NCBI GenBank assembly: GCA_001798595.1
Contig: MGSS01000081.1
Coordinates: 1 to 59,793, forward strand
Direction: 5' to 3'
DNA from: Deltaproteobacteria bacterium RIFCSPLOWO2_12_FULL_60_19
GTDB lineage: Bacteria; Desulfobacterota; Binatia; UBA9968
Length of the DNA: 59,793 nt
The notes below the pieces were generated by a model. It saw only the letters and a list, made by a program, of their open reading frames with translations, was not told where the DNA came from and did no database searches. Both the position numbers and the translations under genes were made by a program. This document shows, one piece after another, positions 26-29,575 of this stretch (positions are counted from its first letter, which is position 1; each line of letters opens with the position of its first letter).

Positions 26-937
26 ATGAAAATTCTTCGCTTCAACGACGACCGGATCGGCGTGCTCAAAAATGAAACTCACGTCGTGGACGTGAGCGAC
101 GCGGTTCCTTCGCGCAAGGCCAAAGGGCCGCAACGCGTCGTCGAAGACATCATCGAAAACTTCCGCCGGTACCGGCGCCGGTTCGAGCGCATCGTGGCCG
201 AGCAGGAGGGCGTGCCGCTTGCAAGCGTCAAGCTGCTCGTCCCGATTCCCCGGCCGAGCAAATGCATGGCGGCTTTCGTGAATTATGTCGATCGGCCGGA
301 CCGCAGCCCGGACACGCTGCCCAACGAGTATTTCTACAAAGCCCCGGAATTGGTCGGACCCGAAGGCACGGTGGAACTGCTGGATATCCCGCCCGTGGTC
401 GTCTACCAGCCGGAAGCGGAGCTCGCGTTCGTGATGGGCAAGCGGGCAAAGAACGTGACTGAGAAAAAAGCGATGGACTACGTCTTCGGCTACGTCCCGT
501 TCTTCGACATCTCCGCCAGAGGCCTCACCCGCCGCACGCAATTTATCCCCAAGGGCCAAGACGCCTTCGGCCCGTGCGGCCCGTGGATCACAACCAAGGA
601 CGAGATCCCCGATCCGCACAACATCGTGGTGAAATCCTGGGTCAACGGCCAGGCGCGGCAGAACTACAACACCAAGTTCATGGCGCACAAGATTCCCGAC
701 CAGATCGCATGGCTCACTAAATACGTCCAGCTACAGCCCGGCGACGTGATCGCGACCGGCACCTACCACGAGGGGCTCGGCCCGCTCAACGGCGGCGATG
801 TGTTGGAAATCGAAATCGAGAGGATGGGCAGGGCAAAATTCTTCGTCAAGGGCCTGGGGCCGCGCAAGGACGCCGAATGGATGCCGGGCAAGAACCAGCC
901 GACGCCACCGCCGGGCGGAGGGATGAGCAGGGTTTAG
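26..937 (+). CDS. Fumarylacetoacetate hydrolase (FAH) family protein
   Basis: A 303-residue FAH-fold enzyme, of the family that hydrolyses or decarboxylates acylpyruvates and 2-hydroxy-hepta-2,4-diene-1,7-dioate-type products of aromatic ring cleavage. The metal-site signature is visible: E130 and E132 in PEAELAFVMG, then D161 in PFFDIS. It is followed by the family segments GQDAFGPCGPW (178-187) and ATGTYHEGLG (243-252). The N-terminal domain seen in many FAH proteins is present, and the C-terminus is a proline/glycine-rich tail. A GGAGG ribosome site at 13-17 sets the ATG at 26. It faces the NMT1-type ABC operon tail to tail. The fold assignment is firm; the substrate is not known from sequence. 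Confidence 0.9.
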   Translation: MKILRFNDDRIGVLKNETHVVDVSDAVPSRKAKGPQRVVEDIIENFRRYRRRFERIVAEQEGVPLASVKLLVPIPRPSKCMAAFVNYVDRPDRSPDTLPNEYFYKAPELVGPEGTVELLDIPPVVVYQPEAELAFVMGKRAKNVTEKKAMDYVFGYVPFFDISARGLTRRTQFIPKGQDAFGPCGPWITTKDEIPDPHNIVVKSWVNGQARQNYNTKFMAHKIPDQIAWLTKYVQLQPGDVIATGTYHEGLGPLNGGDVLEIEIERMGRAKFFVKGLGPRKDAEWMPGKNQPTPPPGGGMSRV

Positions 938-944
938 GGCTAAA

Positions 945-1022
945 GTACTGAGTAACGAGGACTGAGGACTGAGCTAGGGAGGCGGGGAAACTCAGCACCC
1001 AGCACTCATCCCTCAGCACTCA
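945..1022. repeat. Word-type inverted repeat at a convergent gene junction
   Basis: The gap between the FAH gene and the facing permease is made of the word ACTGAG/GACTGAG repeated on the left (945-974). Its complement, CTCAGCAC/CACTCA, is repeated on the right (990-1022). The two arms can pair imperfectly around a purine-rich loop. The stop codon of the minus-strand permease lies inside the right arm. It probably acts as a bidirectional 3' end or terminator (inference). Confidence 0.6.
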
Positions 1023-1796
1023 TTTCTCCTCACTGGTCATTCCCCGATGCCAGGAGAGCAGCGTGTTAGTCGCCAGCAGGAAAATAATGTTCAGCAGATA
1101 TCCGAGCAGCGCCAGCGACAGCATGCCGGCGTACATCTGATCGACCTTGAAGCGGCGCTGCGAGTCGAGAATAAAATAACCGATCCCGTCGCTGCTCCCC
1201 ACCATCTCCGAGATCACCACCAGGATTAACGTGATCCCCAGCGAGATTCTCAAGCCCGTCGCGATCTGCGGCGAAGCGGCGGGCAGAATCACCTCCGTGA
1301 CGAGCCTGCCGCGCGAAACGCCGAAAGTGCGCGCCGTATAAATCAGAACCCGATCGACGTTTTTCACGCCGTCGAGCGTGTTGAGCAGGATCGGCCACGC
1401 GCACGAGAAAAAGATGACGAAGACCTTCATCCCGTCCCCCAGGCCGAAGAGCAGCATCGCCACCGGCACGACGACCGGCGGCGGGATCGGCCGCGCCATC
1501 TCGATCACGATCTCCAGCATGCGCCGAATCTTTTTGAACAGCCCGAGCGCGACCCCCAGCGGGATAAAGACGGCGGCGGCCAGGAGATAACCCGCCGCCG
1601 CCCGTTTCATGCTTGTTAAAATCTGCGCCGGGATATCCCCCGCGGCGACGAGCGTGAAAAACGATCTCAGGATCTTGCTCATCGGCGGGACAAAGAGTGG
1701 ATTGACGACTTCTGTCCGCGACGCGATCTCCCAGACGGCGACCACGCCCAATAGCACCGCCACGCCGTTCAGTTTCGATTCCGGGTTCCAGCTCAC
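1020..1796 (-). CDS. ABC transporter permease (SsuC/TauC type), second copy
   Basis: A 258-residue inner-membrane permease of the nitrate/sulfonate/taurine class with about six membrane segments. The cytoplasmic EAA loop that docks on the ATPase is seen around residues 150-180 (TARTFG...EVILPAASPQI). The start is a GTG that overlaps the stop of the upstream permease in a GTGA arrangement at 1793-1796, implying translational coupling. It is the last gene of a minus-strand operon, binding protein - ATPase - permease - permease, and would form a heterodimeric channel with its neighbour. The substrate cannot be read from the sequence. Confidence 0.9.
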   Translation of the reverse strand: MSWNPESKLNGVAVLLGVVAVWEIASRTEVVNPLFVPPMSKILRSFFTLVAAGDIPAQILTSMKRAAAGYLLAAAVFIPLGVALGLFKKIRRMLEIVIEMARPIPPPVVVPVAMLLFGLGDGMKVFVIFFSCAWPILLNTLDGVKNVDRVLIYTARTFGVSRGRLVTEVILPAASPQIATGLRISLGITLILVVISEMVGSSDGIGYFILDSQRRFKVDQMYAGMLSLALLGYLLNIIFLLATNTLLSWHRGMTSEEK

Positions 1797-25895: not shown

Positions 25896-26693
25896 ATGAC
25901 TCGAACCGGCCCGCTCCGCGAAGGCGACGCGATCATCCTCTCCGACCGCAAGCAGAGAGAATATCTCAAGCTACTGGAAGCCGGAAAACCCATCTCCGCC
26001 CGCGGCGGCAAGATCGCCGCGGAGGATATCCTCGGTAAAGAAGAAGGCTTTTTCGTGCGCTCGTCGCTGGGCGATCTCTTCCTGGTCTTTCGTCCCACGC
26101 TCACGCAGCTCGTGCCCAACCTGCCGCGCCAGGCGCAGGTCATCTATCCCAAAGACATCGGCCAGATCCTCGTGTGGGCCGACATTTTTCCCGGCGCGCG
26201 CGTGGTCGAGGCGGGCGTCGGCGCGGGGGCGCTGACGATCGCCCTGCTCCGCGCCCTGGGATCGATGGGCCATCTCATCTCCTACGAGCTGCGCGACGAC
26301 TTCGCCCACATGGCGCGGGAAAACGTCGCCCGCTTCCTCGGCCCCGCGGGGCACTGGACGCTCAAGCTCGGCGACGTCGCCCAGTCCCTTGAAGAGAGCG
26401 ACTTGGATCGAATCATTCTCGACCTGCCCGAGCCCTGGCAGGTGACCGAACGCGCCTGGAATGCGCTCCGCCCCGGCGGAATCGTGCTCAGCTACGTTCC
26501 AACCATCGTGCAGGTAAAGACCTCGGTGGAGTCTCTGAGAGACCACGGCGGCTTCGCCTGCATCGAAACTATGGAAACCTTGCAGCGATTCTGGCACGTG
26601 AAGGGTTTGAGCGTCCGCCCCGAGCACCGCATGGTCGCCCATACGGGTTTTATCACCGTCGCAAGACGGCTGGCGGAAAGAGCTAGAGGATAG
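25896..26693 (+). CDS. trmI: tRNA (adenine-N1-)-methyltransferase, m1A58 type
   Basis: 265 residues. Uses S-adenosylmethionine to methylate N1 of A58 in the tRNA T-loop. An N-terminal beta domain (1-90) precedes a Rossmann domain with VVEAGVGAGALT (103-114) and the family motif LDLPEPW (175-181), whose D176 is the conserved catalytic-site aspartate. The size fits the tetrameric bacterial/archaeal enzyme. The last 19 codons, AHTGFITVARRLAERARG included, recur in altered form at 27270-27327 beyond the next gene, marking a rearrangement. Confidence 0.92.
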   Translation: MTRTGPLREGDAIILSDRKQREYLKLLEAGKPISARGGKIAAEDILGKEEGFFVRSSLGDLFLVFRPTLTQLVPNLPRQAQVIYPKDIGQILVWADIFPGARVVEAGVGAGALTIALLRALGSMGHLISYELRDDFAHMARENVARFLGPAGHWTLKLGDVAQSLEESDLDRIILDLPEPWQVTERAWNALRPGGIVLSYVPTIVQVKTSVESLRDHGGFACIETMETLQRFWHVKGLSVRPEHRMVAHTGFITVARRLAERARG

Positions 26694-26758
26694 AGGACGC
26701 CTTCAGCTTTCGGCGGGAGCAAACGGCGCCTGATAACGAGAACCAGGGAGGTATCAAG

Positions 26759-27250: not shown

Positions 27251-27269
27251 CGATTGCCGTCGAACAGCC

Positions 27270-27327
27270 TGATCGCACACACGGGTTTTATCACCGTGGC
27301 AAGAGGGCTGGCGGAGAAAACCGGAGG
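27270..27327 (+). pseudogene. Displaced copy of the trmI 3' end
   Basis: 58 bp match 26632-26689 at 48 positions. In the trmI frame it reads LIAHTGFITVARGLAEKTGG and then runs on to a TAG at 27340-27342. Most differences are silent or conservative (for example CAT/CAC, GTC/GTG), so it looks like the end of a diverged trmI allele rather than a decaying copy. The start of that allele is absent. Confidence 0.7.
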
Positions 27328-27356
27328 CCAGCGGGTATTATAGCTGAGGCGACGCG

Positions 27357-28268
27357 ATGCTCCGGAAAAAGTCGCGCAAGAAGCTGAACGCAGTCGGACC
27401 GGCTAAGCTCCAACGGGACTCCCGTCACCCACTTCAGCTGCGATGGCCCGCAAAATTCCTAAAGCTCTTAGGCCGGATGCCGGATACCGCACTGGCGAAA
27501 AAGATGGGCGTGAGCCTGGACGCGGTCCGAGACGAGAGGCGGCGGCAGAAAATCGAGCCTTCTTTGCCTCATCGTCCGCCGGTTCAGTGGACCGCCGGAA
27601 TGATTCGACTTTTAGGCGGGAATGTCGATGCAAGGGTCGCGGAGAAACTCGGCTTGCCGGAGTACTTGGTCATGCACAAGCGGCAACGGCTGGGTATCCC
27701 GTCGCATGGCGACGTCCCCGAGCGACGCCAGCCGCGCGCCTTTAACTGGACAAAAAGAAAGATAGCTTTGTTGGGCACCGATTCCGATCGCAAGATTGCC
27801 GAGCGCTTGGGAACAATCGGAGGAGTGGTTGTGCGCCGGCGCACGCGGTTGGGCATCCCGAGCTTTTATCGCTATCGCCGTATTTCATGGACAAAAGAGA
27901 TGGTATCACTGCTTGGCAAGACCACCGACTGGGAGATTGCGAAGAAATACGGGATGAAGCGAGAGAGCGTGGCACGGGAACGGCGAAAGCGCGGCATCCC
28001 GCCTTGCATCGACGCGCGGCCGGTCATATCCACTCCTGCGCTGAGGCCGATTCTGTCGCTGCCAATGCGAGTGATCGCACGTCGTTTTCTCATCTCGAGA
28101 TTTCAATGGCGGGCACCGCCGGCTCACCGAGAATGCATCAGCATAGAAGCCCTTCTGCCTTTCTATGAGCCTTTCTATGAGCCGCTTGTAACCGACACCT
28201 CAAAACGCTACGCTACGCCGCCAAAGGACCCCTCGCATTCAGGCGACGAACGTCACGCTTACGTTTAA
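27357..28268 (+). CDS. Four-repeat SANT/Myb-like helix-turn-helix protein
   Basis: 303 residues, strongly basic. Four tandem units of about 45-50 residues begin at R29, Q77, N130 and S178. Each reads W-(T/P)-x3-(I/F)-x-LLG-x3-D-x2-(I/L)A-x2-(L/M/Y)G-x5-V-x3-R-x2-(L/R)GIP, for example WTKRKIALLGTDSDRKIAERLG. The first unit is the most diverged at its end (KIEP for GIP). The pattern is that of a three-helix HTH whose last helix carries arginines, so it should bind DNA along several turns. Residues after about 225 do not continue the pattern, and the last 25 or so are encoded by a displaced copy of the downstream ABC gene's leader. The natural C-terminus may therefore be altered. No ribosome site is obvious. 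Confidence 0.65.
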   Translation: MLRKKSRKKLNAVGPAKLQRDSRHPLQLRWPAKFLKLLGRMPDTALAKKMGVSLDAVRDERRRQKIEPSLPHRPPVQWTAGMIRLLGGNVDARVAEKLGLPEYLVMHKRQRLGIPSHGDVPERRQPRAFNWTKRKIALLGTDSDRKIAERLGTIGGVVVRRRTRLGIPSFYRYRRISWTKEMVSLLGKTTDWEIAKKYGMKRESVARERRKRGIPPCIDARPVISTPALRPILSLPMRVIARRFLISRFQWRAPPAHRECISIEALLPFYEPFYEPLVTDTSKRYATPPKDPSHSGDERHAYV

Positions 28269-28278
28269 ATCGAAAAAC
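28183..28278 (+). pseudogene. Displaced copy of the promoter and 5' end of the ABC ATPase gene
   Basis: This segment aligns with 28741-28836, with ATTCAGGCGACGAACGTCA identical (28238-28256 and 28797-28815). Read in the ATPase frame it encodes IQATNVTLTFKSKNRQ against IQATNVSLTFRPKNRE in the real gene. The start ATG has become AGG and the -10 TATACT has become TACGCT. The match stops where the ribosome site of the Phd gene begins. It looks like the head of a diverged allele. Confidence 0.7.
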
Positions 28279-28299
28279 CGCCAAGGAGGGTGAAAAGTC

Positions 28300-28641
28300 A
28301 TGAAATCGGTTGCACTGTCAGAGGTGAAAGACGACTTGTCGAGATACCTGCGTCTAGCAGCAGAAGAAGATGTGATCATTACCCGACACGGTAAGGCCGC
28401 TGGCATCTTGATCGGCTTTGCGTCTGAGGACGATTGGTTTGACTACCGGCTGGAGCACGACCCAAGGTTTACCCGTCGTATCGAGGCTGCGCGCGCAAGC
28501 CTGCGCGCTGGACATGGAATTCGGTTCGAGGATCTGGAAGAGCTTGAGCATAAGGCGTCTAGCCAACGTGCCGCAACGGCCGCCGGCTACGGCCGCGCCC
28601 GGTCGAAGCGCGTCGGCTCAGTTGGCCGTGGGCGTCGTTGA
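28300..28641 (+). CDS. Phd/YefM-family antitoxin, orphan
   Basis: 113 residues. The N-terminal domain MKSVALSEVKDDLSRYLRLA...VIITRHGKAAGILIG is the Phd/YefM DNA-binding fold that represses its own operon and neutralises a toxin. A middle helical part (45-90) would contact the toxin. The last 25 residues are Ala/Arg/Gly-rich. AAGGAGG lies upstream at proper spacing. No toxin gene follows; the next 140 bp have no open frame with PIN, RelE or Doc character. The gene is therefore an orphan, or its partner was lost in the rearrangement seen here. Confidence 0.8.
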   Translation: MKSVALSEVKDDLSRYLRLAAEEDVIITRHGKAAGILIGFASEDDWFDYRLEHDPRFTRRIEAARASLRAGHGIRFEDLEELEHKASSQRAATAAGYGRARSKRVGSVGRGRR

Positions 28642-28743
28642 GCGTGAATGAACCATGGCGATGAAGAACCCACCCCATAAGCCCGCTGGCGCGCGGCTGT
28701 AAAGGTTGGCGTGTTTCCCCGCCTCGCTGTTTCCCCGCTTCGC

Positions 28744-28773
28744 TTGTAACTCAAACCCCAAAAACGCTATACT
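28744..28773 (+). promoter_or_regulatory. Promoter of the second ABC importer, possibly leaderless
   Basis: TTGTAA (28744-28749), an 18-bp spacer and TATACT (28768-28773, 5 of 6). The ATPase ATG is at 28784, only about ten bases after the -10, and no Shine-Dalgarno precedes it. The transcript may thus begin at or just before the start codon. Confidence 0.55.
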
Positions 28774-28783
28774 CCGCCCCCAA

Positions 28784-29575
28784 ATGGCCCCCTGTATTCA
28801 GGCGACGAACGTCAGCCTTACTTTCAGGCCCAAAAACCGCGAGCCGGTCACCGCGCTCAGGGAATTTTCCATCGAAGTCGCCACGGGAGAATTCGTCAGC
28901 ATCGTGGGGCCGTCGGGCTGCGGCAAGAGCACTTTTTTGAACATTCTTCTCGGATTGCTCAAGCCCGATGCCGGAGAGACGCGGCTGAACGGAACGCAGA
29001 TCGCCGGCCCCGGCCAGGAGCGGGCGATGGTGTTCCAGGAGTTCGGGCTGCTGCCGTGGAGGACGGTGCTCGCGAACGTCGAGCTGGGCCTGGAGCTAAA
29101 AGGCGTGGCCGTCGCAGCGAGACGGAGCCGGGCGATGGAGCTGATCCAGATGACGGGCCTGGCGGGCTTCGAAACCCACTACCCGCACGAGCTTTCCGGC
29201 GGGATGAAACAGCGCGTCGGCCTGGCGCGGGCGCTGGCGACCGATCCGCAGGTATTGCTGATGGACGAGCCGTTCGCCGCGCTCGACGCTCAGACGCGAG
29301 ACCTGATGCAGGCGGAACTCCTGCAGGTATGGGACCGAACCAAGAAGACGGTGATCTTCGTGACGCACAGCATCGAGGAGGCCGCCTATCTGTCCGACAG
29401 AGTCCTCGTCACGAGCGCGAGGCCCGGGAGGATCAAGCAGATCATCAAAGTCCAGCTCCCCCGGCCAAGAGATTACGAGATGAGGTTGTCGGCCAAGTTC
29501 AACGAGATCAAAGCAGAGATATGGAACGCTCTGAAAGAAGAGCTATTGGGAAGGGGCGCCGGTAATGGCACTTAA
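28784..29575 (+). CDS. ABC transporter ATPase (SsuB/TauB/NrtD type)
   Basis: 263 residues. Walker A GPSGCGKST (42-50), Q-loop VFQEFG with Q85, LSGGMKQR (137-144), Walker B LLMDEP (158-163) and the switch histidine in VTHS are intact. The frame is open 78 bases upstream, but the ATG at 28784 is the first position resembling the family start and lies just after a good promoter. It overlaps the next permease by 11 bp. First gene of a plus-strand importer whose binding protein is encoded on the opposite strand at 31425. Confidence 0.92.
   Translation: MAPCIQATNVSLTFRPKNREPVTALREFSIEVATGEFVSIVGPSGCGKSTFLNILLGLLKPDAGETRLNGTQIAGPGQERAMVFQEFGLLPWRTVLANVELGLELKGVAVAARRSRAMELIQMTGLAGFETHYPHELSGGMKQRVGLARALATDPQVLLMDEPFAALDAQTRDLMQAELLQVWDRTKKTVIFVTHSIEEAAYLSDRVLVTSARPGRIKQIIKVQLPRPRDYEMRLSAKFNEIKAEIWNALKEELLGRGAGNGT

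Follow-up and report, generated by a model that had tools for sequence, protein, structure and literature searches.

A predicted tandem helix-turn-helix array in a Binatia genome, with relatives on plasmids and in phages

The stretch of DNA analyzed here, 59,793 nucleotides from Deltaproteobacteria bacterium RIFCSPLOWO2_12_FULL_60_19 (hereafter the window), encodes at positions 27357-28268 of the forward strand a protein of 303 amino acids, with an ATG start, that carries predicted tandem GcrA/homeodomain-like helix-turn-helix (HTH) units, four intact and one broken. The explanation that we favor, and consider probable, is that it is a free-standing multi-HTH array, probably drawn from a mobile element, that would bind a long composite DNA site. 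As judged from its sequences, the family to which this protein belongs is widespread yet uncurated, and is found on plasmids, in phages, and in fusions with phage homing nucleases.

The original prediction had described a tandem repeat protein at this position, and the repeat lies far beyond chance, since the best ungapped pair among the four units scores 79 under BLOSUM62, whereas 500 shuffled versions of the protein reached at most 43. When aligned without gaps from their tryptophans, any two of the four units are identical at 11-17 of 37 positions. The predicted unit length of 48 residues is approximate: the units begin at W30, W78, W131, and W178, with tryptophan-to-tryptophan spacings of 48, 53, and 47, and are themselves about 45 residues long, separated by short linkers of variable length. 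The predicted unit pattern describes the array, although unit 1 departs from it by its W-P and K-I-E-P. Together, the unit HMM and the AF2 model delimit unit 1 to residues 25-68 (27429-27560, as for all units on the forward strand), with a predicted recognition helix at residues 54-63; unit 2 to residues 73-117 (27573-27707; helix 102-112); unit 3 to residues 126-171 (27732-27869; helix 155-165); and unit 4 to residues 173-217 (27873-28007; helix 202-212). While the count of four holds for full units, a degenerate fifth at residues 221-247 (28017-28097), detected by alignment and the unit HMM and deprived of its recognition helix, had been overlooked. If the array family is defined by at least three consecutive units per open reading frame recognized by the unit profile, the window protein belongs to it by virtue of its four full units and partial fifth; its scores are partly circular, as the profile was trained partly on its own units, whereas those of the plasmid and phage proteins described below are independent. 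The protein is strongly basic, with a calculated pI of 11.5 for residues 1-228, and a search of its own genome revealed no second copy of the unit.

The three-helix HTH fold proposed for the units is supported by structure prediction. From three aligned sequences, AF2 places three helices in each of the five units of an orthologue (mean pLDDT 67.6, pTM 0.24). It does the same for units 1-4 of the window protein, at a mean pLDDT of 63.7. This moderate confidence supports the fold of each unit and not the mutual arrangement of the units. The proposed SANT/Myb-like affinity fared less well, in that the nearest solved fold in VIA-align, obtained with the orthologue's counterpart of window unit 2, is the DNA-binding domain of GcrA (Z 6.1 over 43 residues, rmsd 2.4), followed by DNA-bound homeodomains, DUX4, Reb1, Myb, and others at Z 5.0-5.5. 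All of these Z values are middling, and GcrA, homeodomain, Myb-type, and other HTH folds tie within approximately 1 Z, so that a Myb-type fold lies close behind. Comparison by hhalign of the unit profile with the GcrA sequence, for which the fragment used was identical to the PDB chain, gave an E-value of 0.0011 but a probability of 21%. The GcrA domain from Caulobacter (PDB 5yiu/5yiv) is likewise a three-helix module, about 45 residues long, and its W-T...IA..LG...R-LG-L layout is similar. Unlike the array protein, however, GcrA possesses a single unit ahead of an unrelated C-terminal part, and its helix-1 -LW- motif stands where the array unit has an LG-x3-D signature.

Searches of the curated databases returned little that is specific. 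Foldseek matched the whole array to nothing significant in the PDB, and PDB sequence searches with the protein and the unit profile as queries produced chance-level rows only. Neither the window protein nor its orthologues matched the Pfam GcrA family (PF07750) at E ≤ 1, nor did any of them contain a GIY-YIG, HNH, or LAGLIDADG catalytic domain. Pfam yielded only generic HTH families, some of them above cut-off; HTH_23, with a curated cut-off of 24.6, scores 31.2 in one orthologue (that of genome G007, below) and 20 in the window protein. The assignment of the unit to the homeodomain-like HTH class follows from this match above cut-off together with the predicted three-helix unit and its recognition helix 3. 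NCBIfam gave no match, leaving the unit without a model in either Pfam or NCBIfam. As plasmid arrays are moreover annotated as hypothetical proteins only, defining the family would annotate many megaplasmid genes. The literature on tandem HTH or homeodomain-like arrays, GcrA-like tandem domains, and pQBR103 HTH proteins, searched with most subscription journals outside its scope, held no description of the array family.

Whole-genome searches located the array gene in 3 of the 25 genomes of the taxonomic family, the window genome included. The two orthologues, from other genera, share 66-70% and about 44% identity with the window protein and contain five full units each; they are encoded in genome G002 (L017, contig JAHFAP010000063, 278 residues) and genome G007 (L018, contig JACQUW010000235, 260 residues from the chosen start codon), both Deltaproteobacteria MAGs whose isolate names indicate a groundwater origin. 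Among the pattern-based scans, only that of the genome contigs with the alignment recovered both proteins; with the protein alone, the same contigs yielded no relatives, and neither did the viral contigs with the alignment. In both orthologues the fifth unit is intact, although the alignment shows it to be without the W-T start, and the protein terminates shortly thereafter. The unit HMM scores this unit at 48-51 bits in the orthologues, as opposed to 7.5 in the window, because helix 3 is missing there, at a place where the DNA sequences diverge through small indels. It had been proposed that the natural C-terminus was replaced by a copied leader of the neighboring ABC-transporter gene. The copy is real (28183-28281, forward strand; 78% identical to the original at 28741-28840), yet it encodes only the run-on at approximately residues 276-303 (28182-28265, forward strand), and the break in helix 3 of the fifth unit occurs some 85 bases upstream of it. 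The broken unit may be an assembly error.

For residues 1-228, comparison with the nearest orthologue, that of G002, gives a dN/dS of about 0.2 (dN 0.21, dS 0.99), with third codon positions accounting for 101 of the 185 changes; the array gene was therefore under purifying selection. Over the fifth-unit region the ratio is about 0.4 (dN 0.375, dS 0.93), and the sequences are thus compatible with a possible relaxation of selection there. The neighborhoods of the orthologues are mutually unrelated and gene order is not conserved, which, together with the presence of the gene in so few genomes of the family, shows that it is dispensable. Upstream of the three orthologous genes, no shared motif or operator stood out above the level of shuffles.

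Across the phylum, the array profile matches 5 of 395 genomes, the window genome among them; the others comprise two congeneric genomes whose proteins have 3 units, one single-unit protein, and one LAGLIDADG-like protein. Most unit-profile matches at E-values of 1e-5 to 1e-3 in the phylum cover the HTH core alone, in proteins mostly of about 1000 residues, and were not counted as arrays. The unit is also found on mobile elements: tblastn matched 72 plasmid and 26 phage records, with E-values down to 3e-19, several of them labeled GIY-YIG or homing endonuclease. Applied to plasmid and phage proteins absent from its training, the unit HMM counts 7 units in a protein of pQBR103, 4 each in P. syringae pPma4326F and P. 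psychrotolerans, and 3 each in the IncP plasmid pAOVO02 and the uncultured phage LR745208. A second reading of the units adds 6-unit proteins on both pQBR103 and pPma4326F and a 9-unit protein on the latter, and each of these Pseudomonas megaplasmids holds about 20 units in total. The unit count in homologues, which the original prediction had put forward as a check, is therefore five in both orthologues and three to nine in plasmid and phage arrays. A modular DNA reader, as had been proposed, is still the best available reading of the protein; its four-unit array, however, is not unusual. The 7-unit protein of pQBR103 (L106:3848-4984) and the 9-unit protein of pPma4326F (L112, about 225-1770, reverse strand) are apparent counterparts, and their differing counts suggest that units may be gained by duplication or lost.

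In addition to these free-standing arrays, the unit occurs beside nuclease domains. A Vibrio phage GIY-YIG protein contains three clear units and two weak ones, gene 55 of Mycobacterium phage Applejack, annotated as an HNH endonuclease, has one unit at its start, and in genome G340, from the phylum of the window, a LAGLIDADG-like protein (L012:853-1659) whose LAGLIDADG match is below the Pfam cut-off ends in one C-terminal unit. A library of predicted viral structures contains 36 matches to the array fold at E ≤ 0.001, including some under the names endonuclease or D5. Units embedded in nuclease homologues had been expected to change the DNA-reader interpretation; the association with GIY-YIG, HNH, and LAGLIDADG proteins goes part of the way to that expectation, but is read here in its support. 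That the unit accompanies three different nuclease folds speaks most strongly for regarding it as, most likely, a DNA-targeting module. In phage homing nucleases, loosely tethered DNA-binding modules contact targets of up to about 30 bp (PMC3943268), and in phages the array unit lies beside GIY-YIG and HNH domains, where it would most likely supply target recognition. The window protein, unlike such nucleases, is without a catalytic domain, and its Pfam search matched no NUMOD family. Phage T5 D5, a DNA-binding protein needed for replication and late transcription according to its record, was considered as a direct member of the array family through PHROG 323, since a match at 4e-12 links the window protein to that profile, over profile positions 96-229 of 319 only. 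Direct membership is not supported by the unit HMM, which detects no significant units in D5; the LG-x3-D signature is missing, and with D5 as the query, no plasmid matches were obtained.

Variation at the predicted recognition helix, another feature of the original prediction, was examined by a permutation test on surface positions assigned by eye to helix 3 or to helices 1 and 2. Among the orthologues, helix-3 surface identity is 47% for orthologous units but 10% for different units of one protein; the figures for helices 1 and 2 are 34% and 20% (p 0.014). For the 6-unit pair from pQBR103 and pPma4326F, the corresponding values are 100% and 7% for helix 3 and 87% and 12% for helices 1 and 2 (p 0.028). 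The pattern is found in two of the three array pairs tested, the 4-unit pair showing no helix-3 signal (p 0.85); the 7- versus 9-unit comparison was left out because dropping short units put it out of register. Over a set of 46 non-redundant units, variability is highest in the columns of the first two exposed helix-3 positions, with some helix-1/2 positions nearly equal to them. Helix-3 surfaces that are specific to a unit yet kept in orthologues are suggestive, and only suggestive, of sequence reading.

Taken as a DNA-binding array, the protein would place its units side by side on one long DNA site, the third helix of each entering the major groove to read its own few base pairs, so that together they would recognize a composite site of perhaps 20-30 bp. 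Among working analogues, the best studied is Cbp1, whose three HTH domains align along one CRISPR repeat (PMC10883916), and the array would be a further variant of such tandem HTH binders. In Cbp1 and Cbp2, from Sulfolobales and relatives, duplication-derived HTH domains on short linkers bind the CRISPR repeat in series (PMC10883916); unlike the array family, these proteins are archaeal, have two to three units, and are dedicated to CRISPR repeats, and no sequence link between the two groups was detected. The Cbp2-type structure 2lvs ranks eighth in the Foldseek list for the array, which is not significant. Because free-standing arrays have no catalytic domain, their likeliest activity would be not cutting but the occupancy of a specific site, whether for repression, as a roadblock, or in DNA architecture, and regulation or such occupancy is the role that we would favor for the window protein. 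Should each unit of an array read its own part of a composite site, arrays would constitute natural DNA readers of three to nine units, with many variants from which to learn an HTH recognition code, and one targeting module would be common to phage homing nucleases and plasmid regulators. A bolder proposition, to which we give only tentative and limited credence, is that arrays are widespread modular sequence-specific readers on bacterial mobile elements, with units gained, lost, and diversified at helix 3 and with unit order encoding the DNA target. In that case they would be, in spirit, the bacterial counterpart of TALE or zinc-finger arrays.

Several observations would also fit a nucleoid-associated protein with no sequence specificity, whose highly basic chain of HTH units coats or bundles DNA whatever its sequence. 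The pI of 11.5-11.9 in the three orthologues, the probably flexible arrangement of units in the AF2 models, and the upstream regions devoid of a common motif are all in keeping with this. Yet such a binder would have no need of helix-3 surfaces that differ between units and are kept in orthologues, as in two of the three array sets; furthermore, the unit is also found in homing nucleases, and the arrays of plasmids have a lower pI, of about 10. We thus regard a non-specific role as unlikely. Slightly less credible still is a decayed homing endonuclease, of which only the DNA-targeting half would be left after loss of the catalytic domain, now without function. The three nuclease folds that accompany the unit, the patchy occurrence of the gene in the family, and the state of the window copy, whose fifth unit is being lost and whose reading frame extends into a copied leader, could all be cited for it. 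A dN/dS of about 0.2 between genera argues instead for function until recently, while the nuclease-free orthologues indicate that free-standing arrays are an established form, and plasmids keep several arrays each.

A gene from a toxin-antitoxin family lies near the array in all three orthologous loci, which raises the possibility that the array is the DNA-binding partner of nearby toxin genes, or a regulator that binds their operator. These neighbors are a Phd/YefM-like gene in the window (28300-28641, 32 bases downstream of the array), a MazF/PemK-like gene in G002 (L004:66-404), and, in G007, a gene with a PIN domain immediately upstream on the strand of the array gene (L005:2208-2630). However, the family is a different one every time, gene order is not conserved, another gene intervenes in G002, and toxin-antitoxin genes are generally common near mobile inserts, all of which makes such a locus highly improbable. 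PADLOC reported a weak match to the 'mad1' HTH alone, and a defense-system reading was not adopted. A free-standing array that would bind a composite site is retained as the preferred explanation.

Under this explanation, the gene would probably have originated on a mobile element and then entered the spacer between the TrmI and ABC-transporter genes in the lineage of the window. In the window, the array gene lies between the inner copies of two duplications: the ABC-leader copy described above, and, just upstream, a copy of the 3' end of the TrmI gene (27264-27334, forward strand; 79% identical to the original at 26626-26696). Each copy is nearest to the original of its own genome when compared with all other genomes of the family. 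The two duplications bracket a SnoaL-like and a Phd-like gene, a pattern as if each insertion into the spacer had doubled 70-100 bp. An economical order of events would be that the array arrived before the SnoaL-like and Phd-like genes, which then inserted on either side of it and each left a duplicated flank. In relatives, the gap between TrmI and the ABC-transporter gene is often 55-110 bp, while others hold unrelated genes there, and these differing contents show the spacer to be prone to insertion. By eye, the genes in the spacers of relatives (L119-L124) include glyoxalase-like, deacetylase-like, and substrate-binding-protein-like ones.
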